DNA from: a virus
Length of the DNA stretch: 20,950 nt
Reading direction: 5' to 3' (one strand)
IMG/VR virus record: IMGVR_UViG_3300018041_000089
Location: 1 to 20,950 of that record
How positions within the stretch are numbered: the stretch's first letter is position 1; the number at the start of each line of letters is the position of its first letter. Of the stretch, positions 1 to 18,265 are shown one piece after another. The translations under genes and the position numbers were made by a program. The notes beneath the pieces were generated by a model. The model saw nothing but the letters and a program-made list of their open reading frames with translations. It did not search any database and was not told where the DNA came from.

Positions 1-299
1 CCTGAAGTACCTGATGAGCCTGATGTTCCAGCTTCACCTGAAGTACCTGATGAACCTGATGAGCCCGATTCTCCTGAAGTACCTGAGCTACCTGAAGTTC
101 CGTCTGTTCCTGAAGTACCTGAACTACCTGATGAACCATCTGCTCCTGAAGTGCCTGAGCTACCTGAAGAACCAGATTCTCCTGAGGTACCTGATGAGCC
201 TGATGAGCCAGATTCTCCTGAAGTACCTGATGAACCCGATGAACCAGATTCACCTGAAGTACCTGAAGAACCGGAAGTTCCAGATGTTCCAGAAGTATT
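1..299 (-). repeat. Collagen-like Gly-X-Y repeat tract (partial)
   Basis: Tandem 9-base units encode G-(T/S/E/A)-(S/D), usually in the order GSS GTS GES. The plus strand reads as repeated cctgaagta/cctgatgaa. The tract runs off the left edge and is closely related at DNA level to the tract at 2007-2866. Confidence 0.9.
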
Positions 300-1184
300 G
301 GCTTCACCACCACCTCCAGTAATGTTAATAAGTACGCCGTTTGAACCGCTGGCGGTTACTTCAACGCCGCTTCCCGTGAAGTTGAGGTTGGATGCGTTAC
401 CTACGACTAAAGAGCCAGTATAGAGTACATCTGTGATGGTTAAATCATCAAAGAAGTTTTGTAATTCAATCTGGTATGGGGCAAAGTTTGAACCTGCAGG
501 TAAGTCAGTAATACCAGCTAAGTTAGTTGCAAATATGGGGGCTAAAGACTCTGATGTAGTTAAGGATACAATAGGAAGGGTTTGACCTGGAGATAAAACT
601 AATTGATCTCCACTTTCTGCTTGTGTTCCTTCTTCAGCCCATTCAATGTAAAAAGAAGCTTCTGATCCATCAGCAGATCTGTATAAAACATCGGCAATAC
701 TATATTTGTGATATCTACCAGGGATTAAAGTACCTCCTGAATTTGCGGCTGCTCCTATAATAGCATATACCGGAGTAGATCCATTATATTCATTATCATC
801 ACTACCTGTAATATTTTTAGTATTAATAGGTGTTGTAGTGTTGGGATCATAGAATGAAGCTGAAGCTACATAATAATCACCATCGGCGGGTGAAATTCTA
901 GCTAAAGCATTTGTTACAGTAGTTGCTGGGAAGTCTGCAACAGTAATGGTAGCAGCACCAGTATCTACAGATACTACGGTAGTTCCCGCTGTAAAGGGGC
1001 CAGAAGCTACAAAAGTTTGTCCAGGTTTTACATAGTCTATATTGAGGTAACCTGATACGTCAATTACATTAGTAATTGTCTTTGAAGACGTATCAAAATC
1101 ACCTCTAACTCTAATGTATGAGTTACTACCTGAACCGATGGGGGTAACTCCAGAAAGTTTACCGTAGAAAAGTTGGTTTGCCAT
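1..1184 (-). CDS. Collagen-like tail/neck fibre protein, partial (C-terminus beyond left edge)
   Basis: This reading frame opens at ATG (1182-1184, MANQLFYGKL) and stays open for 394 codons to the left edge, so the C-terminus is missing. About 295 N-terminal residues are beta-rich and Ser/Thr/Gly-rich (for example SSKTITNVIDVSGYLNIDY and TTVVSVDTGAATITVADFP) and match no family I can name. A GGGG linker then leads into a Gly-X-Y tract made of GTS, GSS, GES, GTD and GAD triplets. Collagen-like Gly-X-Y tracts form trimeric shafts in phage fibres, so I infer a virion fibre that extends from a particle-bound N-terminal domain. It lies just downstream of a second fibre gene with the same repeat, separated from it by a hairpin and an AT-rich leader. 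Fibre assignment is fairly sure; the attachment point and receptor are unknown. Confidence 0.8.
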   Translation of the reverse strand, partial: MANQLFYGKLSGVTPIGSGSNSYIRVRGDFDTSSKTITNVIDVSGYLNIDYVKPGQTFVASGPFTAGTTVVSVDTGAATITVADFPATTVTNALARISPADGDYYVASASFYDPNTTTPINTKNITGSDDNEYNGSTPVYAIIGAAANSGGTLIPGRYHKYSIADVLYRSADGSEASFYIEWAEEGTQAESGDQLVLSPGQTLPIVSLTTSESLAPIFATNLAGITDLPAGSNFAPYQIELQNFFDDLTITDVLYTGSLVVGNASNLNFTGSGVEVTASGSNGVLINITGGGGEANTSGTSGTSGSSGTSGESGSSGSSGTSGESGSSGSSGTSGESGSSGSSGTSGADGSSGSSGTSGTDGTSGSSGTSGESGSSGSSGTSGEAGTSGSSGTS

Positions 1185-1218
1185 GTGTTTATACTAGTAT
1201 GTACAATGAATATTCTAG

Positions 1219-1226
1219 TATAAATA
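1219..1226 (-). promoter_or_regulatory. TATTTATA motif upstream of fibre gene (candidate late promoter)
   Basis: The coding (minus) strand reads ATATTTATACTAG, 35 bases from the ATG at 1184, farther than other copies. The leader also holds a palindrome ATACTAGTAT (1191-1200). Assignment as a promoter is inferred from the recurrence of this motif ahead of other genes. Confidence 0.45.
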
Positions 1227-1233
1227 TGAAGAA

Positions 1234-1256
1234 AGAAGCCCCAAAACGGGGCTTCT
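1234..1256 (-). terminator. Hairpin terminator after fibre gene
   Basis: A perfect 9-bp stem AGAAGCCCC/GGGGCTTCT with a 5-base loop lies 24 bases past the stop of the fibre gene that ends at 1280. The following T-run on the minus strand is short and interrupted (TTCTTC), so it may be a weaker terminator than those at 7497 and 10587. Confidence 0.7.
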
Positions 1257-1279
1257 AAAAATATTTTAAATTGTTTTTT

Positions 1280-3031
1280 TTAGAATTGGAGAGTATAAAT
1301 AACTGAACCAAAAGTATCTAAACCTCCACTTAGAGTATAGATATTAAAATTAGTGGTTGGTGAGAAAGTTAAACCAGCAGCACCAATTTTAGATCCAGCA
1401 CCTACGTTATAAGCATCAAACCCAGGAATATTTCTAGAAGATGTAGAAATATTACCTCCAGATCCATTTGTGATAGAATTTGGTAGGGTTAATGTAATTA
1501 CTCCAGTTTCAGAAGAATCAATATAAACAGTACAAGAAATCAATTGGCAATTACCAGCTGATGGAGCATCTATAGTTAATGCCGTTTCACTTAAAGCTGA
1601 TACGTCAAATGCTGGGATATAAGCACCTGTAGATCCACTAGTATCTCCTGAATTTGCTACAGTACAAGTAAATGTATCTGTACCTGTTGAGGTAATAGAA
1701 ACATAAACATAATCTACGTTAAATCCTCTTAATACTACATAATCACCTGTAGTTAAACCATGTGCTGTAGAAGTTACAGTTAAAGTTGTACCTGAACGGG
1801 TCCATGATAATCCACTTTCAATGTTACCTGATGATAACATTTGGAATGTATCATTACCTGAGGTTCCGGCATATCTAACGACATTATTATATGGAGTACC
1901 TCCACCACCACCTCCGCCAGATTGGTCTACCCATTCTGTATCGTAGTCAGTACCTGAAGCTTTAGCTAATACCTGTCCTGAAGTACCACCTGTTGGAACT
2001 CCTTGTCCTGAAGTACCTGAGCTACCAGATGAACCGTTAGTACCTGAAGTTCCTGAAGAACCATTAATACCTGATGTACCGGATGAACCCGAAGAGCCAT
2101 TAATACCTGAGGTACCAGAAGAGCCTGAAGTACCTGATGAACCATCTGTACCTACACCTGAAGTACCGGAGCTACCTGATGAGCCATTTGTTCCTGAAGT
2201 ACCGTTTGTTCCTGATGTTCCGTTTGTTCCCGAAGTACCACTTGAACCTGAAGTACCATTAATACCTGAAGTGCCTGATGAACCCGAAGAACCATTAATA
2301 CCTGAAGTACCGGATGAACCTGAAGTACCTGATGAACCGTCTGTACCTACACCTGAGGTACCTGAAGTACCTGATGAACCATTAGTACCTGAAGTACCAG
2401 AGCTACCTGAAGAACCATTAGTACCCGAAGTACCATTTATTCCTGAAGTACCTGAGCTACCAGATGAACCATTTATACCAGAAGTTCCTGAAGAACCTGA
2501 AGAACCGTCTGTACCTGAAGTACCAGATGAACCTGATGAACCATCTGTACCTATTCCTGATGTACCTGAAGAACCAGATGATCCATTTAAACCTGAAGTG
2601 CCAGATGAACCTGAAGAACCGTCTGTACCTGAAGTGCCAGATGAACCTGAAGAGCCATCTGTACCTGAAGTGCCAGATGAACCTGATGAACCATCTATAC
2701 CTATTCCTGATGTACCTGAAGAACCTGAAGAACCGTTTATACCTGATGTACCAGATGAACCAGAAGAACCATCAGCTCCGTTTATACCTGAAGTACCTGA
2801 AGAACCTGATGAACCATCTGTACCTATTCCTGATGTGCCTGAAGTGCCTGAGGTACCTGAGGTACCTGAGCCTCCTCCACCACCTGTGCCTACGGCAACA
2901 ATAGTACCATCAGATGCTTTATAGTAAAGTCCTTCAGCTCCTAATGAGCCAGATGAGAAAACCGCAATCTTACCCGTGCCCGGATTCTCGATTGCGCTTC
3001 CAGTAGTATTTAGAAAATTAATTTGAGCCAC
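1280..3031 (-). CDS. Collagen-like phage fibre protein, complete
   Basis: 583 residues. An N-terminal domain of about 55 residues (AQINFLNTTGSAIENP, then YYKASDGTIVAVG) resembles short attachment segments of phage fibres. A Gly linker leads into about 285 residues of Gly-X-Y repeats (GTS, GSS, GIN, GTD, GTN). Next comes a phage-tail-repeat-like segment (GGTSGQVLAKASGTDYDTEW), a second Gly linker, and a C-terminal beta-rich domain of about 190 residues containing the HGLTTGDYVVLRG type of strand-turn pattern known from marine phage fibres. The start is GTG (3029-3031): no ATG exists upstream before an in-frame TAA, and GTG gives a natural MAQINFLN start. It follows the neck genes and precedes a second collagen-like fibre gene. 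The repeat contains no proline, unlike animal collagen. The C-terminal domain is the probable trimerisation or receptor-binding tip (inference). Confidence 0.85.
   Translation of the reverse strand: MAQINFLNTTGSAIENPGTGKIAVFSSGSLGAEGLYYKASDGTIVAVGTGGGGGSGTSGTSGTSGTSGIGTDGSSGSSGTSGINGADGSSGSSGTSGINGSSGSSGTSGIGIDGSSGSSGTSGTDGSSGSSGTSGTDGSSGSSGTSGLNGSSGSSGTSGIGTDGSSGSSGTSGTDGSSGSSGTSGINGSSGSSGTSGINGTSGTNGSSGSSGTSGTNGSSGTSGTSGVGTDGSSGTSGSSGTSGINGSSGSSGTSGINGTSGSSGTSGTNGTSGTNGTSGTNGSSGSSGTSGVGTDGSSGTSGSSGTSGINGSSGSSGTSGINGSSGTSGTNGSSGSSGTSGQGVPTGGTSGQVLAKASGTDYDTEWVDQSGGGGGGGTPYNNVVRYAGTSGNDTFQMLSSGNIESGLSWTRSGTTLTVTSTAHGLTTGDYVVLRGFNVDYVYVSITSTGTDTFTCTVANSGDTSGSTGAYIPAFDVSALSETALTIDAPSAGNCQLISCTVYIDSSETGVITLTLPNSITNGSGGNISTSSRNIPGFDAYNVGAGSKIGAAGLTFSPTTNFNIYTLSGGLDTFGSVIYTLQF
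2007..2866 (-). repeat. Collagen-like Gly-X-Y repeat tract with phase breaks
   Basis: About 285 residues of G-(T/S/I/L)-(S/N/D) triplets. The commonest block is GSS GSS GTS followed by GIN, GTD or GTN. The triplet phase slips by one residue at GIGTD, GIGID, GIGTD, GVGTD and GVGTD, equivalent to the G1G interruptions of collagens. The DNA is a dense set of 9-base direct repeats and a likely site of slippage or recombination. Confidence 0.9.
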
Positions 3032-3046
3032 TTCGAATAGGTTTAG

Positions 3047-3057
3047 TTATAAATATT
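3047..3057 (-). promoter_or_regulatory. AATATTTATAA motif (candidate late promoter)
   Basis: The coding strand reads AATATTTATAACTAAAC, 15 bases upstream of the GTG start at 3031. It is one of a set of near-identical copies ahead of minus-strand genes in this window. Confidence 0.55.
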
Positions 3058-3088
3058 GTTGTTTTCTGTTAAATCACCTAAATATTAA

Positions 3089-3403
3089 TTAAATATCTCC
3101 CCCTATTTCAATTACTCCACTATTAACTATTGTACCTTGGTTATCAAGGATGTTAGTTACATATAGTTGTGAAGTTGCTCGAGTAATAGAGCCATCAGGT
3201 AATTGGATTTCAGGACCAGCCTCCATAAGTAAAGTACCAGCTACTGTTAAATTGTATGTAGATACACTAGTATTAGGACTTACTGTAAAATAAGCTCCTG
3301 GGAGGATGATTTGAGGGATGACAGATCCATAAGCTGTGGAATTAAATGTTCCATTGGCAAATGAATTTACTGCTACACTATCTAAAAATCTTACATTACT
3401 CAT
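3089..3403 (-). CDS. Small beta-rich structural protein, unrecognised
   Basis: 104 residues. I do not recognise a family. The sequence looks all-beta: short hydrophobic strands (QIILPGAYFTVSP, STYNLTVAGTLLMEAG, SQLYVTNILDNQGTIVNSGVIEIGG) separated by turns, without membrane segments or cysteines. Ladders of VAGTLL, NQGTIVNSGVIEI are typical of beta-helix or fibre-associated phage proteins. Its ATG overlaps the stop of the upstream gp15-type gene by 4 bases (3400-3403), which implies translational coupling, and it precedes the fibre genes. I infer a small virion component near the tail-fibre or neck attachment site, without direct evidence. Confidence 0.7.
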   Translation of the reverse strand: MSNVRFLDSVAVNSFANGTFNSTAYGSVIPQIILPGAYFTVSPNTSVSTYNLTVAGTLLMEAGPEIQLPDGSITRATSQLYVTNILDNQGTIVNSGVIEIGGDI

Positions 3404-4380
3404 TTGTGTCCTGTATCGTTTAGTCGTTTACGAGTGGTTGTATTTTCACTCAATCTATTTCTACCATCTAAAGTAACTTGGGGATCAGGTTGGAAAACCT
3501 GTGGGTTTGAAGTAGTCTCCATTGAGAATACAACCTTAGATTTTTCATTAAATTTCTTAACAGAAGCAAGATCTTTTTGTACTATGTCAGGTATAATATA
3601 TCCATACATATTGATGTCAAACGTACTCCTAACAGAACGATCTTCACCTTTTGCTATTTCATTTACTGTATTGAAACTATCAATACGAGCCATAAATTGG
3701 AATCTTTGTGGGTTTCCCCAATAAGCATCTGATGCGTAGTTAATGGCTTCTACTATATTATTTAATTGTTCAACATAGTAAGTTTGTACAATCACACTAT
3801 ATTGTAGTGTAACGTAATCTGGGACTACGTTTGCGACAAACTGTTTAGTTTGAACTCTATTATTTAATATATTAAAATTAGAATAGAAATTTTTACTATT
3901 CCAAGTTTTTTGCCAAGAAGTATATAAGTGAGGCATGTTAGCATCTAACTTGTTTGTAATACTTCTATTTTTAGTAATAGTATTTCTCTTAAACATAATC
4001 ATAGGAGACATAATAGCTCCATTTTTATCTCTAAGATATCCATCTTTTTGAACTGCTTTCCATCTTTCAGGAGAACCATACATCACAGGAACTTCTATTC
4101 TTTCCCCATTTTGGTATACAAAAGGACGAATTACATTCTGGAAGTAATAAAGGATAGCTTCATCAATATCTTGGATTCCAACTGTAAATTCTTTATAAGT
4201 ATCTCCTTTACGAGACATTTTTTCAGAACGATTAAAAGGAATACCAGCTTGGTTGACATTAGGGTCAGTAGAATATTTACCAGCATCATTAGGATTACCA
4301 GCTGTAACATCATGGGGAGTATGTAAGCCTTCGCTAATTTCCCTTTGAGTTTTTGGTGTTGGTTGTCTTTGCTTTGCCAT
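3400..4380 (-). CDS. 15: Tail completion / sheath terminator protein, T4 gp15-like
   Basis: 326 residues (T4 gp15: 272). In T4, gp15 caps the finished tail by binding the last sheath and tube rings and then joins the head. The pattern of gp15 is visible in order: helix with aromatic residues (AILYYFQNVIRPF, about 75-88), RIEVPVMYGSPERWKAV (94-110, matching the gp15 RVPITYAS segment), a strand around PMIMFKR, VTLQYSVIVQTYYVEQLNNIVEAI (190-213), PQRFQFMARIDSF (224-236), and RSTFDINMYGYIIPD (251-265, matching the gp15 segment ending NGWMYPP). The first 60 residues are polar, probably disordered and extra relative to T4. The gene starts right at the stop of the gp14-type gene (1-base overlap) and overlaps the next gene by 4 bases. 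Identified from remembered sequence pattern, not a search. Confidence 0.75.
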   Translation of the reverse strand: MAKQRQPTPKTQREISEGLHTPHDVTAGNPNDAGKYSTDPNVNQAGIPFNRSEKMSRKGDTYKEFTVGIQDIDEAILYYFQNVIRPFVYQNGERIEVPVMYGSPERWKAVQKDGYLRDKNGAIMSPMIMFKRNTITKNRSITNKLDANMPHLYTSWQKTWNSKNFYSNFNILNNRVQTKQFVANVVPDYVTLQYSVIVQTYYVEQLNNIVEAINYASDAYWGNPQRFQFMARIDSFNTVNEIAKGEDRSVRSTFDINMYGYIIPDIVQKDLASVKKFNEKSKVVFSMETTSNPQVFQPDPQVTLDGRNRLSENTTTRKRLNDTGHK

Positions 4381-7543: not shown

Positions 7544-9217
7544 TTAAAGGGTATTTAAACCGTTTACGTAGATCTTACCGTAGAATTCTGGACGAATCAT
7601 CTTCTTAGCGTAACGAGTTAAGAGACCTTTTCTTGGAGTGAAGGTTTCTGGATCGTAGATAAGAGGAGTCATGATTAACGGAATGTATGGAGCGAATACA
7701 GCACCAGACTCAAGGAACTGAGAGCCTCTATAACCCATAAGGATTAAGTTCTCGTTCATGTAAGGGTTTTTGTAAACGTCATATCTGTTATTCAATGAAC
7801 CAGCTTTCTGAACACCAAATGCATAGTTTTTAGTAACGTCACCATCAGAAGTAGCAGCGAATCCAGGGATTGACTCAAGGATAGTAGCTACAGCAGGAGA
7901 AATTACCATAAAGTTAGCACCACCACGAAGAGTTAACTGGTGGATACGGTTGCTTAACTTTTGCATTTTAGTTCCTAAAGTTTGGAACCAACCGCCTTGT
8001 GTATTGTAGAAACCAGAAGCGTTAGCAGCGAAAGTAGTTCCGTTGAACTCTTCGTTGTTAATAGCACTCCAGTACTCAGTACCAGCAGCAGCATCTTCGA
8101 TCAACATATCAAGGATTTCGAGGTCGATTTCCAATGAGATGTACTCACTCATGATGTTGGTTACTTCAGCTTCAGCGTCAAGAGCTTGGTAAGCGTTAAG
8201 GTCTTGTGCGAACTCAGGAGTCCAAACAGCCTTTAACTTCTTAGTCTTGGCAACAATAGCTTCAGATTTCATTTGGATGTTGATCTCAGGGATCGCGATC
8301 TCAGCAGCATTAGCAGCGTTAGGTACAGCGTAGTCGTTACCAGCTTCGAAGTCACCTACGTTGTAAGGAGACATTGCTGTAGCCTTATTGTAGAATACTG
8401 TCCACTCGTCACCATCGTTTAATGCAGCATCAGTAGCAACTACGAAAGAAAGTGTATCAGCAGTAGCATTGTAAGTAGTGAATGCTGGGTAAACTTCGTC
8501 AAGAGCGATAAGACCAGAAGAAGTAGCAGGTACGAAACCACGTACAGCTTCAGTGTCAAAGCCAGGAAGTGCAGCAGCAACACCAGCTAAAGTGATAACA
8601 GCTAAGTTAGCTGGGTCTAATCTGCTATCGAAATTGATAGAAGCAGAAGTAGCAGCTGCGTTAGTCATAGTCACATAAGACGATGAGAATTGGTTTGTAG
8701 AGTAAGTAAACTTACCAGCACCGTATAAACCACCAGCACCAAAAGTCTCATTTAAGTTACTCGTAGCAGTACCGAAGTTATTTGCGTTTTGAGTACCATA
8801 AAGTGAACCATTAAGAGCAAATGGAGTTTTAGCAGCGTTATTAGCACCACCATACTGGAAATCTAAATAGAATACAAGACCTGAAGGAAGGTTCATCGGC
8901 TGTACAGAAACGAATTCTTTAGCAGCGATTTGACCGAATACCTTACGTACTAAAGGTAAAGCGATACCAGCCCATTCAGCACCATTGCCTACTGAGAAAT
9001 TACCGTAGCCAGAACCACCACCTACTGATGATTGCTCTACTACTAATTGTTTTGCTTGGTTTTCAAGGATCAAAGACATGTTGTTCTTGTCTACCTCTTT
9101 GGACATACCTTCGAGTAAACCTGTCTTTTCCCACTTTGAAGCCAAACGTGCAGCGTCAGATTGCATATTTTTCCAACCTTGTCCTGCAGACTCTAAAAGA
9201 GATTGAATTTGTGACAT
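7544..9217 (-). CDS. 23: Major capsid protein, T4 gp23-like
   Basis: 557 residues (T4 gp23: 521). It forms the hexamers of the head. The block EFVSVQPMNLPSGLVFYLDFQYG (101-123) aligns with the gp23 segment VQPMNSPTGQVFALRAVYG, and GGGSGYGNFSVG (66-77) with the Gly-rich region just after the T4 cleavage site. The N-terminal 61 residues are helical and charged, as expected of the delta domain removed by the prohead protease; LVVE-Q (E61/Q62) is the likely cut. Later landmarks are VRGFVPATSSGLIALDEVYPAF, IPEINIQMKSEAIVAKTKKLKAVWTPEFAQDLNAY and the C-terminal MTPLIYDPETFTPRKGLLTRYAKKMIRPEFYGKIYVNGL, all gp23-like. Codon choice appears richer in C-ending codons than in its neighbours, which fits very high expression. 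It ends at a strong terminator and follows the scaffold gene by 21 bases. Confidence 0.95.
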   Translation of the reverse strand: MSQIQSLLESAGQGWKNMQSDAARLASKWEKTGLLEGMSKEVDKNNMSLILENQAKQLVVEQSSVGGGSGYGNFSVGNGAEWAGIALPLVRKVFGQIAAKEFVSVQPMNLPSGLVFYLDFQYGGANNAAKTPFALNGSLYGTQNANNFGTATSNLNETFGAGGLYGAGKFTYSTNQFSSSYVTMTNAAATSASINFDSRLDPANLAVITLAGVAAALPGFDTEAVRGFVPATSSGLIALDEVYPAFTTYNATADTLSFVVATDAALNDGDEWTVFYNKATAMSPYNVGDFEAGNDYAVPNAANAAEIAIPEINIQMKSEAIVAKTKKLKAVWTPEFAQDLNAYQALDAEAEVTNIMSEYISLEIDLEILDMLIEDAAAGTEYWSAINNEEFNGTTFAANASGFYNTQGGWFQTLGTKMQKLSNRIHQLTLRGGANFMVISPAVATILESIPGFAATSDGDVTKNYAFGVQKAGSLNNRYDVYKNPYMNENLILMGYRGSQFLESGAVFAPYIPLIMTPLIYDPETFTPRKGLLTRYAKKMIRPEFYGKIYVNGLNTL

Positions 9218-9238: not shown

Positions 9239-10444
9239 TTATTTAATACCAGCTAATTTCTGCCATCTAGCAACCTGTGGATCAATTTCCATAATAGGTT
9301 GTTTTGATGGAGCAACACCAGCTGCTTTTGAAGCGCGACCTAAATTCTCTCTAAGTGGAGTAGCGGTAGTTGTGTTAGCAACCATACCCTCGTTTAAAGT
9401 TTCGAAAATAAGTTTTACTTCTGAAACATTAGACGCTTTGTCAAATGCTTCTAAAACTTTAACCTTTTGAGCTTCTTTTAAGTTTTTAGCTCTAAAGATT
9501 TTGTTTGTGTAAAGAAGTTTAGCATTTAAAAGATTAGTTTCGTGAAGATCAGATCTCAATTCCTCGATTTCTTTCTTCATTTCATCCATTTCTTCGGTTT
9601 CACCAATAGATGAAGTTTTACCAGCACCTGATTTAGCTTGACCAGCTGTAGCAGCGCTACCAGCCATACCTAAGAAATCTTTTAATGACATCTTCTTGCC
9701 ATCTACAGTAATGAGTTTACCTAACATTTCTGGGTCGTTCCAAACAGCTTTAAGTTTGTCGGCAATACCTTCTTCCATGTCTTCTTTCTCATCGTGCATA
9801 CCGTCGAGGTAACCCTCTTCTTCTGCGTCTGTACGAGCGTTCTCGTTTACTTCTACGTCTACTTCTGTTTCATCTTCTACATCGATATCTTCGTCGTCTT
9901 CAACTTCGTCTTCAACTTCGAATTCTTCACCTGCTTCTAACTCACCAGATGTAACCATATCAGCGATTACGTCTTCGATGAATGATTTAAGATCTTCTTC
10001 GGACATATCTTCGAGGTCGATTTCTTCATCTTCCATATCGTCTTCCATGTCTTCTTTTTCATCTTTCATGCCGTCTTCGTAGCCTTCTTCTTCAGCGTCC
10101 GTTCTAGCATCCTCATCGAGTTCAGCTAATAATTCGTCTAAGTCCATTTCGTCATCGCCTTCGGCTAGATCCTTACCGTACTTCATTTTTTCTGTACGCT
10201 TAGTTTCTTTACTTTCACCTCCGTCTTTGCGGTCATCGTCCTTGTACTCTTTTTTAGCTTCTGTCATTTCATCTTCTACTTCTTTTAAGTCCTCATCTTC
10301 CATTTCTTGTAGCTTTGCTGATAGCATTGACTTCAATCTTGGTTCAAAGGCCTCTTCCAAAGCAGCTTTTGCGTTTGCAATAGCGGTTTCTCTAAGCGCT
10401 TTTGCATCAGCGATTGCTTCTACGAGCATATCTCTGTTTGTCAT
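9239..10444 (-). CDS. 22: Prohead core scaffolding protein, T4 gp22-like
   Basis: 401 residues (T4 gp22: 269). The scaffold fills the prohead and is digested by the gp21 protease before packaging. Support: the gene sits directly before gp23, is extremely acidic, and is helical or disordered. N-terminal helix 7-50 (LVEAIADAKALRETAIANAKAAL), long Asp/Glu stretch 50-200, a C-terminal half with a coiled-coil segment (EMKKEIEELRSDLHETNLL) and a final RWQKLAGIK. Two copies of a motif of about 22 residues (ARTDAEEEGY-DGM-DEKEDME) lie at residues 113-134 and 203-224; a third copy is in the head protein encoded at 12077-13120. The extra length over T4 gp22 is mainly the acidic and repeated part. Its leader is the longest gap of the window and holds a hairpin. 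Confidence 0.8.
   Translation of the reverse strand: MTNRDMLVEAIADAKALRETAIANAKAALEEAFEPRLKSMLSAKLQEMEDEDLKEVEDEMTEAKKEYKDDDRKDGGESKETKRTEKMKYGKDLAEGDDEMDLDELLAELDEDARTDAEEEGYEDGMKDEKEDMEDDMEDEEIDLEDMSEEDLKSFIEDVIADMVTSGELEAGEEFEVEDEVEDDEDIDVEDETEVDVEVNENARTDAEEEGYLDGMHDEKEDMEEGIADKLKAVWNDPEMLGKLITVDGKKMSLKDFLGMAGSAATAGQAKSGAGKTSSIGETEEMDEMKKEIEELRSDLHETNLLNAKLLYTNKIFRAKNLKEAQKVKVLEAFDKASNVSEVKLIFETLNEGMVANTTTATPLRENLGRASKAAGVAPSKQPIMEIDPQVARWQKLAGIK
9773..9841 (-). repeat. ART-AEEEGY motif, copy 2 (in scaffold gene)
   Basis: Encodes NARTDAEEEGYLDGM followed by HDEKEDMEE. It matches copy 1 at nearly every position and copy 3 including the preceding Asn. Confidence 0.85.
10043..10108 (-). repeat. 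ART-AEEEGY motif, copy 1 (in scaffold gene)
   Basis: Encodes ARTDAEEEGYEDGM followed by KDEKEDME, 90 residues before copy 2 in the same protein. Confidence 0.85.
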
Positions 10445-10634: not shown

Positions 10635-11462
10635 TTATTTAATCTTATCCCACATTGGAAATAATGATTCGGCTGTTTTAGTTTTATTACCTAAGGCGTT
10701 GCCAATAGCAGTTAAGTGCTTTAATGCTGTTGTAGTATCACCCATAGCATCCATATCAATAGCGCCTGCGGCTCCTAATGTAGCACTTGGGTTGTTTAAC
10801 ATTGTAGCAGCCCATCTGTGATGGCCATCTAAAATTTTTCCATCAGTACTAATCCAAGCATCTATATCACCTCCTTCAACCCCACCAATTGCCATACTTA
10901 AAGCTTTAGCTAATAATATATTAGTTTGAGTTGGCTTTGCATCAGCAGCAGATACTGCTGATGGGGTTTTTACTGTAATATCATCATCTGAAGGTTTACC
11001 ATCTTTGGTTCCGCTAGTCATATAATCTTCAGCTTCAGGGGAACCAGGAGTTAAAGTATTTTTAGCAGGAGGAGCAATTGCTTCTTTAAAGTCTACATTA
11101 TATTTACCACCAGCTGTTAAAGCATCTTCTACATCTTTAGGATCACCTTTAGCATCAGGTGGGCCAGGTAAAAATGGCATATCCTTTTTTGCTAACCCTT
11201 GAGTAGGAATTTTACTTCCAACTGCTAAAATTCTGTCTACTACTGTATCAGGACCAATTTTTTCAACCCATGCTTTAGCTTTATTGGCATCGCCAAATTG
11301 ACCCATAGCTTTAATAATTGAAGATTCAGGATCACCTGACATTAATTGGTTTACTGCTTCTCTTGCTGTAGCTTCATCTTTAGGAAATGATGATTGACCT
11401 GTAAATTCTGTTGCTTCATTTAAAGCATTAATTTCGGCTATTAATTCTAACAAACCTTCCAT
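10635..11462 (-). CDS. ParB/sulfiredoxin-fold domain protein of the head module
   Basis: 275 residues. The C-terminal half contains TQTNILLAKALSMAIGG (179-194) and DAWISTDGKILDGHHRWAATML (201-222). The DG-x-x-(L/V)DGHHR-(W/Y)xA pattern with DGHHR at 212-216 is the signature of the ParB/Srx-like fold, whose members bind nucleotides and include nucleases and CTPases. The first 100 residues are helical and the middle (about 100-175) is Pro/Gly/Asp-rich and probably flexible. The gene lies 7 bases after the prohead protease gene and before a terminator and the scaffold gene, so it is expressed as a head-assembly gene, not with partition genes. There is no ParA and no obvious helix-turn-helix. It may be a virion-packaged DNA-acting protein or a core component (inference); the catalytic activity is unknown. 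Confidence 0.75.
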   Translation of the reverse strand: MEGLLELIAEINALNEATEFTGQSSFPKDEATAREAVNQLMSGDPESSIIKAMGQFGDANKAKAWVEKIGPDTVVDRILAVGSKIPTQGLAKKDMPFLPGPPDAKGDPKDVEDALTAGGKYNVDFKEAIAPPAKNTLTPGSPEAEDYMTSGTKDGKPSDDDITVKTPSAVSAADAKPTQTNILLAKALSMAIGGVEGGDIDAWISTDGKILDGHHRWAATMLNNPSATLGAAGAIDMDAMGDTTTALKHLTAIGNALGNKTKTAESLFPMWDKIK

Positions 11463-11469
11463 AAGTAAA

Positions 11470-12075
11470 TTAAAATACGGGACAAGTCCCAGTTGAACAT
11501 AAAATTTCGGTTACAATAGAGTTTACTTTGGCATACTTATCAATCTGGGTTTCCTTACCTTCTTTAATCATATGCATATATGAACCTGGGTTGGATGGGG
11601 TTGATACGAAATCCCAACATAATAATTCAAAGTCATCTTGTACTTCTAACACACCATCTCTATTTTGAGATAATGAACCCATACCACGAGATGAAACACC
11701 TACTTGTACGTTATTTTCAATTAAAGCTCTTAAGATGTTACCTGATGCTGTAGGGAGGATTTCAATTTTGCCAACTACGTGATCTCCATCCCACCACAAA
11801 TCTCTAATGATATGAGATACATTCTTAAGGTTGATAATAGAAGATTCTGGGTGATCTAATTCACCTGTTGCTCTATTTTCTTTTACAACTTCTTGGTACT
11901 TATCAATTTCTCTTTCCCATAATGGCTTAGCATAATAGCGACCATTGCCATTTTTAACTTCGGCGGTAGCTAAAATACCTTCTACCAGTGGATTACCGGA
12001 AGGAGCTTTAATTCCCTCTAATAATTGCACTGGGGAAACCTTAAATGCCTGGGTTTCGATTAGTACTTGTTTCAT
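11470..12075 (-). CDS. 21: Prohead core protease, T4 gp21-like
   Basis: 201 residues (T4 gp21: 212). This serine protease of the herpesvirus-assemblin-like fold digests scaffold and trims gp23 in the prohead. Motifs seen: GNGRYYAKPLWEREIDKY (43-60), ATGELDHPE with candidate catalytic H75 (69-77), GKIEILPTASGNIL (102-114), VGVSSRGMGS with candidate nucleophile S128 or S129 (125-134), and LLCWDFVSTPSNPGSY with a candidate third residue D155 (151-166). These are the standard gp21 blocks in the right order. The gene is separated by one base from the upstream head protein gene and by 7 bases from the downstream ParB-like gene. The last residues (CSTGTCPVF) contain two cysteines and lie outside the core fold. 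Confidence 0.93.
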   Translation of the reverse strand: MKQVLIETQAFKVSPVQLLEGIKAPSGNPLVEGILATAEVKNGNGRYYAKPLWEREIDKYQEVVKENRATGELDHPESSIINLKNVSHIIRDLWWDGDHVVGKIEILPTASGNILRALIENNVQVGVSSRGMGSLSQNRDGVLEVQDDFELLCWDFVSTPSNPGSYMHMIKEGKETQIDKYAKVNSIVTEILCSTGTCPVF

Positions 12076-12076
12076 T

Positions 12077-13120
12077 TTAGTATTCAGACTCGTCTGTAGT
12101 TTCGTCTACAATTTCTGGTTTAGTGTAAGCTTTTCCAGATAATTTTTCATACATTTTTTCCATGCCCGCTTTTTTCTTTTCTAATTCTTTAACAGCGCGT
12201 TGCATTTCTTTCATTTTAGCTTTATCTACTAATTCAGATAGATTTTCATCTTCAGTTACCATAGAAATTCTTTGGTTTTTTTCTTCGATGGCTTCGTCTA
12301 AGTAGTTAATTTGAGCTTCTAATTTTACGATATCACCTTGCTTACCGATTTCAGATAATTTAGAATCAATTGATTCTTTTTTAACTTTTTTCTTTTTATC
12401 TTTAGCTTTGTCTTCTAAATCTTCTTTTTCGTCACGCATTCCGTCTAAGTAGCCTTCTTCTTCAGCACGAGTTCTTGCGTTTTCGTTTGCCATTCCTGAT
12501 GGGCGTAAATCAACATATCCACCGATTGCTTCGTTAATCAAATCTGTTAACTTAATCATTTTTTCTTCTTTTACAGGGACCATTTGGTCCGATTTTGAAG
12601 CTTTTAAACCGGGTGCTTCGTCAGTATACCCAATACCTTTAACACCAAATTGAGCTTCGGTAGTATAATATAAAGGATCTTTAGCTAAATTTTTAGCTAC
12701 AATTTCTTTTAACTCAGTTACGTCTTTACCCTCGTTAGCTGGGTCTTTCATTTCTGTGTAGTAACCTTGTAAGAAGGCTTCACCATATAGATTATCGATA
12801 TTTTTTTCGTCTTTATAGTCGAAATCACGAGTTTCCATATCTGTAACTTCCTTAGTAGGCTTTTTCTCTTCTGCTTTAGCTTCTTCAGCTAAAAACTCTT
12901 TCCAATTGATAAAAGGATTAGTTCCACCTGTAGCAACACCACCGATACTACCTTCTGAGATAATAGACTTTCTTGTTAATACAGACACTGCTGTATCAAA
13001 AGTAGTGATAGGAGTGAATAGATTAGGGAATAACCTACGAGCGGATTTCATGAACATATCTTTACGTCCTTTTCCCTCTTTAATTAGGTTGTATTGTTCT
13101 TGTAATGTTGGTTGTTTCAT
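12077..13120 (-). CDS. Head-module core protein with ART-AEEEGY motif, unrecognised
   Basis: 347 residues, family not recognised. The N-terminus is basic (KGRKDMFMKSARRLFPNLF, about 17-35); the middle is acidic and polar with a YGEAFLQGYYTEM block; residues 215-236 hold ARTRAEEEGYLDGM-RDEKEDLED, the same motif that occurs twice in the scaffold protein. The C-terminal 100 residues are a strongly charged coiled coil (VDKAKMKEMQRAVKELEKKK). With the prohead protease directly downstream (1-base gap) this occupies the position of the small prohead core proteins gp67/gp68 of T4, and I infer an internal core or scaffold-interacting protein. Its ATG overlaps the preceding stop by one base, and AAAAGGAG just upstream is one of the few Shine-Dalgarno-like sequences here. 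Confidence 0.75.
   Translation of the reverse strand: MKQPTLQEQYNLIKEGKGRKDMFMKSARRLFPNLFTPITTFDTAVSVLTRKSIISEGSIGGVATGGTNPFINWKEFLAEEAKAEEKKPTKEVTDMETRDFDYKDEKNIDNLYGEAFLQGYYTEMKDPANEGKDVTELKEIVAKNLAKDPLYYTTEAQFGVKGIGYTDEAPGLKASKSDQMVPVKEEKMIKLTDLINEAIGGYVDLRPSGMANENARTRAEEEGYLDGMRDEKEDLEDKAKDKKKKVKKESIDSKLSEIGKQGDIVKLEAQINYLDEAIEEKNQRISMVTEDENLSELVDKAKMKEMQRAVKELEKKKAGMEKMYEKLSGKAYTKPEIVDETTDESEY
12413..12481 (-). repeat. ART-AEEEGY motif, copy 3 (in head core gene)
   Basis: Encodes NARTRAEEEGYLDGM followed by RDEKEDLED; the copy is in a different gene from copies 1 and 2, about 2.6 kb upstream of them in transcription order. Confidence 0.85.
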
Positions 13121-14792: not shown

Positions 14793-16655
14793 TTACTCTT
14801 TAATATTTGATTCATCTAATAGTGACTCCTTACGTTTATCAGAAGTAAAGACTAATTCTTTGTCTAAAGATTCTAATAAAGTTCGGTTTTTAGCAAAATT
14901 ATGTTTTGCGGCTTCACTAACTGTAGATTGGTCATCTACTTTCATGTCCTTTCTACCTAAACGATCTCTACCGAAAGCGTTGTCTTGAGTATTAATATTT
15001 GAAACCTTTTCTTCGGGACGACCTAAAGGACGTTTTTCATCATAACCATCAGGTACATTACCTGGGTCTGTTTCCATTCTACCTTTACCATATAATGAAG
15101 CTAGATCATGTGGAGTACCATATGAACGACCTGTTGTAAGTGGATCATTACCTTCTGTCTCAATTTGAGCCATACGGAATCTACGTTTTTGGTCCTGAGC
15201 GATTAAGTCTCTATACTCTTCATACTCGTCCTCACTAAAGTGGAAGATATGATTATAAATCCAATCAGTAGGAAGTAATTTATTTTCCATAATTTGAGAA
15301 GCTAAATCTACTTTCTCTTTCATTAATGCGATCTTTTCTTGATCGTAAATGATAGATGGAGTAGTTAATTGTAACTCAAAATTAGTCATTTGTTCGTCTC
15401 TATATCCTTGAGAATATAGGTGAACCAAAGCGATTTTATATAATTCTGAAATTAGAATACGTTGTAATCTGTCAATTGTGCGACCGAAACGGATATCTTC
15501 AGCTGCTAGTGTAGCTTTACCAGATAAATTTTCATCATAGCCCATAAATGCTTTAGGCACTTTAAGAGCAGCAAATAATTTTTCTCTTAGGTATTCTACG
15601 TCTTCGATTGCAGCGTAATCTAAACCTTTTGTAGTATCAATTTTAGTTGCTTGATCGTTACCTCTAATAGGGATATAAAAATCCTCCATTATGTTTTGCA
15701 TATTATAATTCAGGTTATACTCACCTGTTTTCTGGTCCATTAAAGGTGTACGCTTCATTGTAGAAATTGTTTTCTGCATGAAGTTTTCTACCTCATTTGG
15801 AGGAATAGAACCAACGTTAATATAGAAAATACGTTTTTCTGGGGCGCGGACAATTCTATGGATTAGCATTGCATCTTCCATTAACGCATATTGCTTGTAT
15901 AATTTACGAGCAGGTTCAATGTATGAACGACCATATGGAAGATAATTTACATCCGATAGTAATCTAAAGTGAGCAATTTCATAATTATCAAATGTAATAG
16001 TATTACCAGCTGCTCTTTGATTTGGTGTATTATAATATCCTGAGGAAGTACCACCATAGATACCTTCTGGGTTGTAATTAAATACTACTTTAGATGGGTG
16101 TTCTGGGTCAAAATTTTCTTGTCTTTCAATATGGTATGCTGAATATGGGATTACATTATAAACACCATATTTTTCTGAAATTTCTAGTTTAAGGAAAAAG
16201 TCACCATATTTACACATTTGGCGAGTCCAAGACCACAAATTAAATTCAACGTTTAAGATATCGTAGAATAAATTGTAAAGGATCTTTTGAATATCATCAT
16301 CCGAGGATTTGATTTGAAGTACTTCACCCATATCATTTTTAAGAGTACATTCATCAGCAATAATATCAAGTGCAGAAGCAATAATAGCATCTGTATCCAT
16401 TAAATCATAATCTGAGTAGATGTAAGTTCTTAAATACTGATAGTTCATATTGAACTGAGCTCCGTATAAAGAAGTTGAGGCTGGGTTTTGATAGATACCA
16501 GAGAATCTATCCATTAGAGAGTTTGTTTGGAACTCACCAGAGGTTTGAATGTGATCCGTATCGACTACTTTAAGTTGAGTGCCACCAACGTTACGAATTA
16601 CGACGTCGGAAGAAAATAATCTTTGTAGTCTTTTGAATAAACTAGTATCAGCCAT
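14793..16655 (-). CDS. 20: Portal vertex protein, T4 gp20-like
   Basis: 620 residues (T4 gp20: 524). Twelve copies form the DNA-entry ring at one capsid vertex, dock the terminase and later bind the neck. Blocks seen: YQYLRTYIYSDYDLMDTDAII-ASALDIIADECTLKND (72-108), LWSWTRQMCKYGDFFLKLEI, the tunnel/crown region around VEYLREKLFAALKVPKAFMGY and LSGKATLAAEDIRFGRTIDR (about 350-395), and RILISELYKIALVHLYSQGY. All are typical gp20 signatures. The C-terminal 120 residues are polar and probably flexible (GRSYGTPHDLASLYGKGRM onward), accounting for the extra length. The terminase lies directly upstream with a 23-base gap that contains the recurring AATATTTATAA motif overlapping the terminase stop. 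Confidence 0.95.
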   Translation of the reverse strand: MADTSLFKRLQRLFSSDVVIRNVGGTQLKVVDTDHIQTSGEFQTNSLMDRFSGIYQNPASTSLYGAQFNMNYQYLRTYIYSDYDLMDTDAIIASALDIIADECTLKNDMGEVLQIKSSDDDIQKILYNLFYDILNVEFNLWSWTRQMCKYGDFFLKLEISEKYGVYNVIPYSAYHIERQENFDPEHPSKVVFNYNPEGIYGGTSSGYYNTPNQRAAGNTITFDNYEIAHFRLLSDVNYLPYGRSYIEPARKLYKQYALMEDAMLIHRIVRAPEKRIFYINVGSIPPNEVENFMQKTISTMKRTPLMDQKTGEYNLNYNMQNIMEDFYIPIRGNDQATKIDTTKGLDYAAIEDVEYLREKLFAALKVPKAFMGYDENLSGKATLAAEDIRFGRTIDRLQRILISELYKIALVHLYSQGYRDEQMTNFELQLTTPSIIYDQEKIALMKEKVDLASQIMENKLLPTDWIYNHIFHFSEDEYEEYRDLIAQDQKRRFRMAQIETEGNDPLTTGRSYGTPHDLASLYGKGRMETDPGNVPDGYDEKRPLGRPEEKVSNINTQDNAFGRDRLGRKDMKVDDQSTVSEAAKHNFAKNRTLLESLDKELVFTSDKRKESLLDESNIKE

Positions 16656-16669
16656 TGTTTTGTTTATTA

Positions 16670-16680
16670 TTATAAATATT
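16670..16680 (-). promoter_or_regulatory. AATATTTATAA motif overlapping terminase stop codon
   Basis: The coding strand reads GGTAATATTTATAATAATAA: the terminase stop TAA flows directly into the motif, which ends 14 bases before the portal ATG at 16655. Confidence 0.55.
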
Positions 16681-18265
16681 ACCTAAGAAGCCAACTAATG
16701 TCTTCAGTGCCACCATTGCCATACGGATTTTCAATCTTGTATGGATTTTGGGTACCATTAGCATTATAACCACCCTGCCAGCTTACTCTATTGCTAGAGA
16801 TATTATTTAAAGTAGCTTTAGAGGCTTCTAAATGTTGTGATCTAAATTTGAATGAAGTATCTCTCATAAACATAGCGATACCAAATGCCATAACTAAATC
16901 ATCATTATATCCTTGCTGTGCTTCCGCACGGCCATTCTTCCACATAAATACTTTCATTTCTTCAATCAAACGTCTTGATTGAATTGTAACATCTTTACCA
17001 TTAACATACTCTTGAAACTTACCTACAATCATAGGTCGATTTCGAGATGTCATAGTAAAACCAGCTACCATTTTTGATGTATCCATATATTTGTCAAAAT
17101 ACGAATCACTCATTGCGGAATCACTCTTACTTGAATAGAATAGGTTAGTATATCCTCTTTCTATTACAGTTTGGATAGTTGCCCAACCAATAGAAGCATT
17201 TTCAATTACAAGTAATGCTTCATTATATTCAGTAGCTATACCTACTAATAAGTGTCCGTATTCTTTAGTGCCGAGTTGACCTTTATACTCAGCGACTTGA
17301 GTATTGGTTTCAATGTCGATAACATGGAATGCAGAGTAGTCTTTACCATCTCCACGAGCAACGTCAGCAACCACAAGGTAGGATCTTGAATAATCAGCGG
17401 GTTCCCAAATCCATAGATTTTGGTCAGCACCACGTTTTTCAAGTGGATCCTTAATGTATGTTTGTTCATAAAATTGTAAGTATTCAGCGTAGAATACAGT
17501 GTCACCTGAGGTGCTAAAATCACAGTCACATTCTTGGGCTGCCATTCTAGGATCACCTAGTAATTCATCTTGTCTATCTCTCCATGATTGGTCTCGTTCT
17601 GGGTGGACATACCAAGGTAATTTGATTGGTAAGAAATCACTTTCTCCATTTTCTGCTCTAACCCATGTTTGATGGAACCAGTTACCTGTACCATAAGGAG
17701 TAGATAAAGCAATACACCCACCACCAGTAGCAAGTGTTTGTTGAGCTGAGGCCCAGATTTCGCCAATGTTATCAATAAAGGCAGCCTCATCAATTAATAG
17801 AAGAGAAACGGCTTCCGATCTACCGGCATCACTTGATGCTGAAGTAGCTTTGATTTGGGATCCGTTATTTAACCTAAGTGTTAATTTGTTATTTTCGTCT
17901 GCTGGGATTTTCAGCCATGAAGGTAAATTTTCATACATGAATTTAACCTTCGTAACCATGTTTTTAGCTGTTTCTTGCTTAGTCGCAATACAGAGTACGT
18001 TTTTATCCTTTTGGAATAACATCAACCACAGAGAATAACCTGCGCCTAATGTTGAGATACCTAACTGACGGGATTTAAGTACTACGGAATAGGGATTATC
18101 TCTAAATAAACGTAATACTTTTTCTTGGAATGGGTATAAATGGAATGGAATACGTCCACGTTGTGGGTGCTGGATAAAACAGTACTTCTTCATGAAGTGT
18201 ACTGGATCGGAAGCACACTTAATATATTCCTGTTGGATGATTTTTCTTAAATCTTGTTCAGCCAT
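16679..18265 (-). CDS. 17: Large terminase subunit, T4 gp17-like
   Basis: 528 residues (T4 gp17: 610). It is the packaging motor: an N-terminal ATPase that pumps DNA through the portal and a C-terminal RNase H-fold nuclease that cuts concatemers. Motifs: FHLYPFQEKVLRLF (41-54, adenine-binding type region), Walker A variant SRQLGIST (65-72), Walker B LLLIDEAAF (155-163, catalytic E160), coupling motif STPYGTGN (188-195). Nuclease acidic residues are likely D301 in VVADVARGDGKDYSAFHVID, E355 in LLVIENASIGWATI, and the DD in GYNDDLVMAFGIAM. It is shorter than T4 gp17 mostly at the N-terminus. The start shares one base with the stop of the upstream membrane-protein gene. No clear small terminase is adjacent. 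Confidence 0.96.
   Translation of the reverse strand: MAEQDLRKIIQQEYIKCASDPVHFMKKYCFIQHPQRGRIPFHLYPFQEKVLRLFRDNPYSVVLKSRQLGISTLGAGYSLWLMLFQKDKNVLCIATKQETAKNMVTKVKFMYENLPSWLKIPADENNKLTLRLNNGSQIKATSASSDAGRSEAVSLLLIDEAAFIDNIGEIWASAQQTLATGGGCIALSTPYGTGNWFHQTWVRAENGESDFLPIKLPWYVHPERDQSWRDRQDELLGDPRMAAQECDCDFSTSGDTVFYAEYLQFYEQTYIKDPLEKRGADQNLWIWEPADYSRSYLVVADVARGDGKDYSAFHVIDIETNTQVAEYKGQLGTKEYGHLLVGIATEYNEALLVIENASIGWATIQTVIERGYTNLFYSSKSDSAMSDSYFDKYMDTSKMVAGFTMTSRNRPMIVGKFQEYVNGKDVTIQSRRLIEEMKVFMWKNGRAEAQQGYNDDLVMAFGIAMFMRDTSFKFRSQHLEASKATLNNISSNRVSWQGGYNANGTQNPYKIENPYGNGGTEDISWLLR

Follow-up and report, generated by a model that had tools for sequence, protein, structure and literature searches.

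A ParB/sulfiredoxin-fold protein encoded beside the prohead protease gene of a T4-like virus as a candidate internal head cargo

Why does a gene for a ParB-like protein lie between the prohead protease and scaffold genes of a T4-like virus, and what might its product do there? We considered this question for IMG/VR virus record IMGVR_UViG_3300018041_000089, which was analyzed as one stretch of 20,950 nucleotides (hereafter the window). The gene starts with ATG, occupies exactly positions 10635-11462 of the minus strand and encodes a protein of 275 residues that includes DGKILDGHHRWAAT; the ORF with a DGHHR signature described in an earlier note on this DNA is thus real. It runs in the same direction as the prohead protease gene (11470-12075, minus strand; gp21 type, Pfam Peptidase_S77 E 1.1e-29, phrog_207 E 2.2e-57) and follows it closely, the protease stop codon lying 7 bp away. 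Further upstream on the same strand are genes for the portal protein gp20 (14793-16655; Pfam PF07230, E 1.1e-69) and the T4-type terminase large subunit (16679-18265; PF03237, E 1.4e-13). Downstream on this strand, a gene at the gp22 position (9239-10444) was given no name by Pfam or PHROGs; it was designated as scaffold or prohead core protein from its adjacency to the major capsid protein Gp23 gene (7544-9217, minus strand; PF07068, E 1e-72) and its acidic composition. An intrinsic terminator follows the 3' end of the ParB-like gene (10608-10587, minus strand), consisting of a stem of nine pairs and then a T-tract (MFE -22.3 kcal/mol, z -2.9). The earlier note had placed the ParB-like gene in a capsid-maturation operon, transcribed with both of its neighbors and ended by a strong terminator. 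The position and the terminator hold, but joint transcription is qualified by the terminator itself, which separates the ParB-like gene from the scaffold gene, so that scaffold transcription needs read-through or a promoter of its own.

Other features were observed in the same window. The ORF upstream of the protease gene (12077-13120, minus strand) and the scaffold have the module ENARTRAEEEGYLDGMRDEKED in common (15/20 identical in the reported segment, pairwise E 0.003; two copies in the scaffold), and this ORF may encode a second core protein. On the coding strand, TATTTATA at 3048, 6126, 6702, 14773, 16671, and 19204 precedes six start codons by 11-17 bp; the window has eight such sites where 3.6 would be expected, and the sequence may be an element of a late promoter or a leader. 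A T4-late-type promoter was also considered, and it was not used because the matches to TATAAATA are on the plus strand, opposite to the genes. A 583-aa protein (1280-3031, minus strand) contains repeats of the SSGTSG type that hit the collagen repeat of Pfam at E 1.8e-33, and is perhaps a fibre protein.

The protein has helices within residues 2-84 followed by a Pro/Asp-rich stretch, both seen in the sequence and in the AlphaFold2 model, in agreement with the helical N-terminus and linker described before. The conserved core covers about residues 150-260 (10683-11015, minus strand), as delineated from an alignment of 65 sequences that comprised the window protein, its relatives L001 and L003, and 62 of 106 non-redundant references, the mostly more remote remainder being omitted. 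With these 65 sequences AlphaFold2 gave a confident model with pLDDT 87.4 and pTM 0.81, while a model from three sequences was poor (pLDDT 40.7) and was not used. All six entries listed by VIA-align, whose rows were drawn from Foldseek's own 49 chains and cover mainly residues 152-252, are ParB-N or sulfiredoxin structures (Z 3.0-3.5, rmsd 3.7-7.9 Å, 86-98 residues). Five BFVD matches at E ≤ 0.001 included proteins of pT24 and PTm1 and two named ParB/Sulfiredoxin (E 3e-4 to 5e-4), with low TM-scores (0.14-0.37) and large rmsd for these five best matches; no PDB chain reached E ≤ 0.001 in a Foldseek search, an absence that we regarded as uninformative. The C-terminal domain of the model therefore weakly resembles ParB/sulfiredoxin, and the ParB/Srx relationship claimed earlier is upheld at superfamily level, with modest structural scores.

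In the alignment, Q179, I210, and D212-W217 are invariant in 65/65 relatives, although for I210 and D212-W217 this is mostly by construction, since that motif had served to retrieve 62 of the sequences. The DGHHRW stretch (residues 212-217; 10812-10829, minus strand) contains the GxxR box (Box II) as G-H-H-R at residues 213-216. GxxR is described as the P-motif of the ParB-CTPase fold in PMC12704722, where NTP binding by other ParB-fold proteins was tested with an R-to-A change in this box as negative control. The window protein is probably NTP-binding, judging from this box. No Pfam family (including ddrB-ParB, PF18763) was matched by the window protein at E ≤ 1, and 0/65 relatives matched any at E ≤ 0.01; for the distantly related Mel-JY01 protein there is a match to ParBc_2 that stays below the cut-off of that model (E 0.0019). 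Nothing useful for the window protein came from PADLOC or from NCBIfam (in the latter, no model at E ≤ 1).

What kind of ParB-like protein is this? A plasmid-type ParABS partition protein is scarcely conceivable. Only the remote ParB/Srx fold speaks for it, against the T4-like capsid operon around the gene, and it was rejected on the NCBIfam result together with the lack of any ParA-type Pfam family among 23 scanned genes of the 20,950-base record; the earlier note had likewise argued against partition. A second reading takes its cue from the free serine kinase SerK: after injection, the DGHHRWA box would use ADP/ATP to phosphorylate a host protein or a small molecule. When the family profile was compared with PDB sequences, the best four (E 0.034-0.31) were three sequences of free serine kinases and an equally long "conserved hypothetical protein". 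However, the three printed alignments cover only the ten residues IVDGHHRWAG and are not significant. SerK is absent among the VIA-align rows listed, which says little either way, and we consider a kinase of this type improbable.

Relatives of the window protein are found in IMG/VR at 67% identity over the alignment (L001), 65% (L003/L002), and 72% (L045), and L004 is identical across 85 residues up to the contig end. The order protease, ParB-like gene, scaffold occurs in the window, L001, L002, L003, L045, and L098, with gp23 next after the scaffold in the window, L001, and L003; in L056 the protease gene is directly upstream of the ParB-like gene and the scaffold gene 2.5 kb downstream. In the PHROGs search the window protein matched phrog_2859 (E 2.8e-6, residues 160-253), as did 56 of the 65 aligned relatives at E ≤ 1e-3. 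This match, and the protease-scaffold slot kept by relatives of 65-72% identity, place the observation beyond chance. In Sphingomonas phage PAU and Tenacibaculum phage PTm1, the genes for gp148 and ORF-299 lie between portal and protease. The window protein matched them weakly in tblastn (E 0.04 and E 0.1, respectively), and phrog_2859 confirms the kinship (E 9e-40 and E 1e-13), as does the gene position. Used as queries, these two proteins match ParB-like segments in DarB-like, structural, PLxRFG, and internal virion polymerase proteins, including a DarB-like protein of BcepIL02 (E 1e-5 with PAU gp148). Elsewhere the ParB-like gene is beside a terminase gene (MA9V-2) or adjoins a Hoc-like gene (Aeromonas phage 65), and in pT24, SH-Ab 15599, and Mel-JY01 no capsid-operon gene is annotated in the stretch around it. 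Judging from these locations, the fold itself is not restricted to the capsid operon.

For a broader view, we collected at least 120 viral loci by a DNA pattern for I-x-DGHHRW then G; given this selection and the lower-bound count, shares among them are not shares of nature, and E-values of the iterated HMM are self-inclusive. A T4-type capsid or packaging gene was detectable in 29 of 120 such loci among the matches listed, and in 14 loci among the matches listed, some of them near-identical (such as L023/L080/L133), it lay within 200 bp of the ParB-like gene. All 78 detected capsid or packaging genes among these matches (78/78) are on the strand of the ParB-like gene.

The scaffold protein of the window ends with RWQKLAGIK (9242-9268, minus strand), and R[W/M/L]xKLAG[I/L] ends both this protein and ParB-like proteins of related phages. 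Other scaffold genes near gp23 were found in further contigs by the scaffold HMM, which was built from the tagged scaffolds of the window, L001, and L003. After near-identical ends had been collapsed and ORFs without a stop dropped, R[WFYML]xx[LM]AG[ILVT] was present at the C-terminal end of 10/96 ParB-like ORFs, 8/9 scaffolds (a share that the construction of the HMM may favor), and 1/5221 other ORFs among the matches listed (Fisher 2.5e-17, a value that ignores relatedness). Both this regular expression and the one for N-termini used below were written after tagged examples were known, so such Fisher values are descriptive. A PSSM of nine scaffold ends, made with no ParB-like sequence (four of the nine ends come from pattern-selected loci and two more from their contigs), scored above 15 bits for 10/95 ParB-like proteins and 0/5196 others among the matches listed, the best of these others reaching 12.6 bits. 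Close relatives of the window protein that have the tag are L001, L045, L027, L086, and L069, in which one copy ends with AGT. In L003, the tag peptide is near the N-terminus of the ParB-like protein instead (EFLKFQKLAGLI), and the scaffold ends with IKRFQKLAGII.

The tag is also kept away from the capsid genes. In G004, a genome of 284 kb, the capsid operon is near 76-88 kb and ParB-like genes are near 178 kb, about 100 kb apart, and despite this distance two ParB-like proteins end with RWQKLAGIFQD and RWNKLAGTLS. With a looser expression, five ORF ends were found in this genome, belonging to the scaffold, a 503-aa ParB-like protein, and ORFs of 464, 121, and 62 aa, the last of which is likely a chance match. 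The lone other ORF with the C-terminal tag in the comparison above belongs to a family of about 460 aa seen in G004 and G008.

This second, unnamed family is represented by L159:15203-16594 (minus strand) in G004 and L176:8551-9924 (minus strand) in G008, the latter about 3 kb from the ParB-like gene. The two homologues are 37% identical over 169 aa (E 2e-31), and they end with RWQKLAGIK in G004 and with STRWGQLAGV plus six residues in G008. The family is a candidate for further head cargo, judging from these ends.

A different peptide is found on other members. Proteins ipII and ipIII of T4 begin with MKTYQEFIAEA (NC_000866), and ParB-like proteins with N-termini of this capsid targeting sequence (CTS) type include MKHIKTYQEFINED in L090 as well as MKSFKSFISEM and MKSLNEFLNEA. 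According to PMC7697877, the T4 CTS loads almost any fused protein and is removed by the head protease. With ORFs lacking a 5' stop dropped, such N-termini were detected in 11/90 ParB-like ORFs and 19/3065 others among the matches listed (Fisher 1.9e-10, ignoring relatedness); many of the 19 are neighbors with a like N-terminus. The majority of ParB-like ORFs among the matches listed have neither the C-terminal tag nor a CTS by the patterns used. A gp23 gene was found in 1/20 contigs of the mainly CTS-type clade compared with 10/22 of the others; as most searched contigs are short, the CTS itself is the main ground for regarding CTS-type contigs as T4-like.

Similar N-termini also occur in neighboring genes. 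Beside a ParB-like gene starting with MKSITSYINEK in L101, six adjacent ORFs (226-4043, minus strand) start with MKSLSxHITES-type peptides and likely encode CTS-tagged proteins. The ParB-like ORF L031:270-1751 (plus strand) has a CTS-like peptide at both ends, starting with MKSFNEYITEA and ending with KSFREFINEQ. Ten PAU genes around the capsid operon (L007, 2850-10534) start with MKTL/MKTI/MKSL-x-x-LYE or a close variant and are likely to encode internal head proteins; gp148 is without the MKTLTxLYE-type N-terminus of many of these neighbors.

A phylogenetic tree of 94 of 129 core rows (identical segments, fragments, and proteins larger than 520 aa omitted) shows both the C-terminal tag and the CTS scattered, and one branch with 95% SH-aLRT holds L039 (C-terminal tag) as well as L083 and L103 (CTS). 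Such a pattern fits an exchange of tags on a common core, read from few columns and a tree with open forks. When untagged rows are counted, no fewer than 10 changes are needed for the C-terminal tag label and five for the CTS label, compared with two for each label in tagged rows alone, which makes multiple origins likely but not proven.

A third kind of element was detected in PTm1. Residues 169-207 of ORF-299 match residues 54-92 of the capsid protein with 22/39 identities (56%, E 4e-10), and 0/500 shuffles were as good. The copied N-arm segment begins with LLE-SYG where the capsid protein has INE-SYG, and it starts at the likely protease site of the capsid protein. The PAU capsid protein is cut from 585 to 520 residues, with ~65 removed as implied by N-terminal sequencing (PMC5646251), and PAU E64-N65 corresponds to the PTm1 site within about a residue. 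Local alignments of whole proteins gave no comparable copy for the window ParB-like protein against the window scaffold or capsid protein (48 and 81 of 200 shuffles as good), PAU gp148 against its capsid protein (158/200), or the ParB-like protein of L001 against its scaffold (99/200); for L003 against its scaffold, 4/200 shuffles did as well, but the aligned part is charged and of low complexity. Among the pairs compared, the shared signals are terminal peptides, and a long copy is present in PTm1 only.

How does the window copy itself compare? Its C-terminal tail (10638-10673, minus strand) ends with ESLFPMWDKIK in place of the R[W/M]xKLAGI of relatives (L045 ends with ESLEEIKRMKKLAGITQ), and on the scaffold-end PSSM it is without the tag (-8.2, the 33rd percentile of other ORFs). 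Its N-terminal peptide MEGLLELIAEINALNEA (11412-11462, minus strand) is weakly T4-CTS-like, which is suggestive: MEGLLELIAEI aligns gap-free with MKTYQEFIAEA with five identities including M, and the protein has the best CTS score of the 23 window genes, followed by the scaffold and the capsid protein. This score corresponds to the 96.3rd percentile (free offset) or 98.5th percentile (fixed offset) of 2453 background N-termini, taken from the first Met of ORFs many of which are not genes; as the likeness was sought after the fact, it is a lead. In addition, [LI]xE[ASGT], which resembles the T4-type prohead protease consensus, occurs N-terminally in the window protein (as LNE-A) and in L001, L003, and L045; it is a weak motif, looked for post hoc and frequent among head genes of the window, and is not counted as proof. 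The case for the window copy thus rests on position, kinship, and a weakly CTS-like N-terminus. The earlier suggestion of a prohead-internal protein gains indirect support from synteny in several lineages and from targeting peptides on relatives, against which stands the missing C-terminal tag of the window copy. In the literature searched, no virion mass spectrometry naming this protein was found, nor any open-access paper joining "ParB" with "capsid targeting sequence" (subscription papers were outside the scope).

Taken together, we favor as probable, though far from certain, that the window protein is a ParB/Srx-fold internal cargo of a T4-like prohead that is trimmed, retained with DNA, injected, and active early against host defence; three kinds of targeting element (C-terminal tag, CTS, and capsid-arm copy) on one fold argue for head cargo. 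The ParB-like protein would join the prohead core beside protease and scaffold, be trimmed by the gp21-type protease, stay with the DNA, and then enter the host, where it would act early, most likely by shielding incoming DNA from host defence. For the window copy, we infer loading, cleavage, NTP binding, ejection, and an anti-defence function, of which ejection and the anti-restriction role are drawn by analogy from T4 internal proteins and P1 DarB/DdrB.

Two further readings share much of this evidence. The protein may be a prohead assembly or packaging factor, that is, an NTP-regulated core organizer or maturation factor that is degraded or retained rather than ejected. The gene directly between protease and scaffold, the capsid N-arm copy in PTm1, and the tag common to the scaffold would suit such a factor, as the T4 scaffolding core is itself degraded by gp21 (PMC9958956). 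However, the family keeps a box of nucleotide-binding type, some members have the CTS of T4 internal proteins, distant relatives occur in DarB-like proteins, and ParB-like genes of G004 are far from the capsid operon; overall we find an assembly role unlikely. Alternatively, an ordinary phage ParB-like nuclease or regulator could be expressed from the late operon and left unpackaged, its neighborhood being incidental. The pT24, SH-Ab 15599, and Mel-JY01 genes without annotated capsid-operon neighbors and the window copy without a clear tag are consistent with this, but the family carries three kinds of head-targeting element beyond chance, and an unpackaged protein seems to us distinctly unlikely.

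If the window protein is indeed injected head cargo, its target may be considered. According to PMC12373910, each of T4 Ip1-3 blocks a single GmrSD type IV restriction enzyme, and GmrSD enzymes themselves contain a ParB_n domain together with a DGQQR motif. The former makes an anti-restriction role the best guess for the window protein, by analogy; because of the latter, an injected DGHHR ParB-fold protein may disable GmrSD as a decoy partner or nucleotide competitor. More generally, we put forward tentatively, at a little under even chances, a cargo code in which the C-terminal scaffold tag, much like the loading tag of encapsulin cargo, brings in proteins that are then injected, while other lineages load the ParB-fold cargo by the N-terminal T4 CTS or a piece of the capsid arm. 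The proposed bearers of R[WFML]xKLAG[IL] are the ParB-fold protein and the 464-aa family of G004/G008, which would be co-assembled into the core. Host defence encounters internal head proteins before most other phage proteins, yet they diverge so fast that recognizing them outside T4 and P1 is difficult. If the proposal is true, a tag that cargo and scaffold have in common would allow the cargo of many uncultured T4-like phages to be read from their sequences, a C-terminal loading signal would complement the T4 CTS, and phrog_2859, a large unannotated ParB-fold family, would be placed in the virion.

Several known systems resemble parts of this picture. The closest is phrog_2859, which has the same domain at the same profile region as the window protein and is encoded in the capsid operon in PAU and PTm1; its function is unannotated, and only about 97 of its 740 profile positions are matched by the window protein. 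SerK (PDB 5x0b-k), placed in the ParB-CTPase fold tree by PMC12704722, has a DGHHRWA box identical to that of the window protein, and the similarity that could be aligned is confined to the box. The T4 internal proteins IPI/II/III are CTS-loaded and injected, and some ParB-like relatives (L090) have the same kind of N-terminus, whereas the window copy is weakly CTS-like and, unlike the T4 proteins, other relatives bear a C-terminal scaffold peptide; no ParB fold was found described for T4 internal proteins in the literature searched. As for P1, a ParB/Srx superfamily domain (DdrB) is part of a protein found in the phage head and linked to antirestriction (PMC5512222, PMC9024508), the latter paper also reporting an N-terminal capsid targeting signal shown for DarB. 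These DarB/DdrB polyvalent proteins are large and multidomain, whereas the ParB domain of the window is standalone, has no match to Pfam ddrB-ParB, and belongs to a family whose tags vary from lineage to lineage. Descriptions of ParB-fold domains in heads already exist for P1-type polyvalent proteins; what is new here is the targeting evidence.
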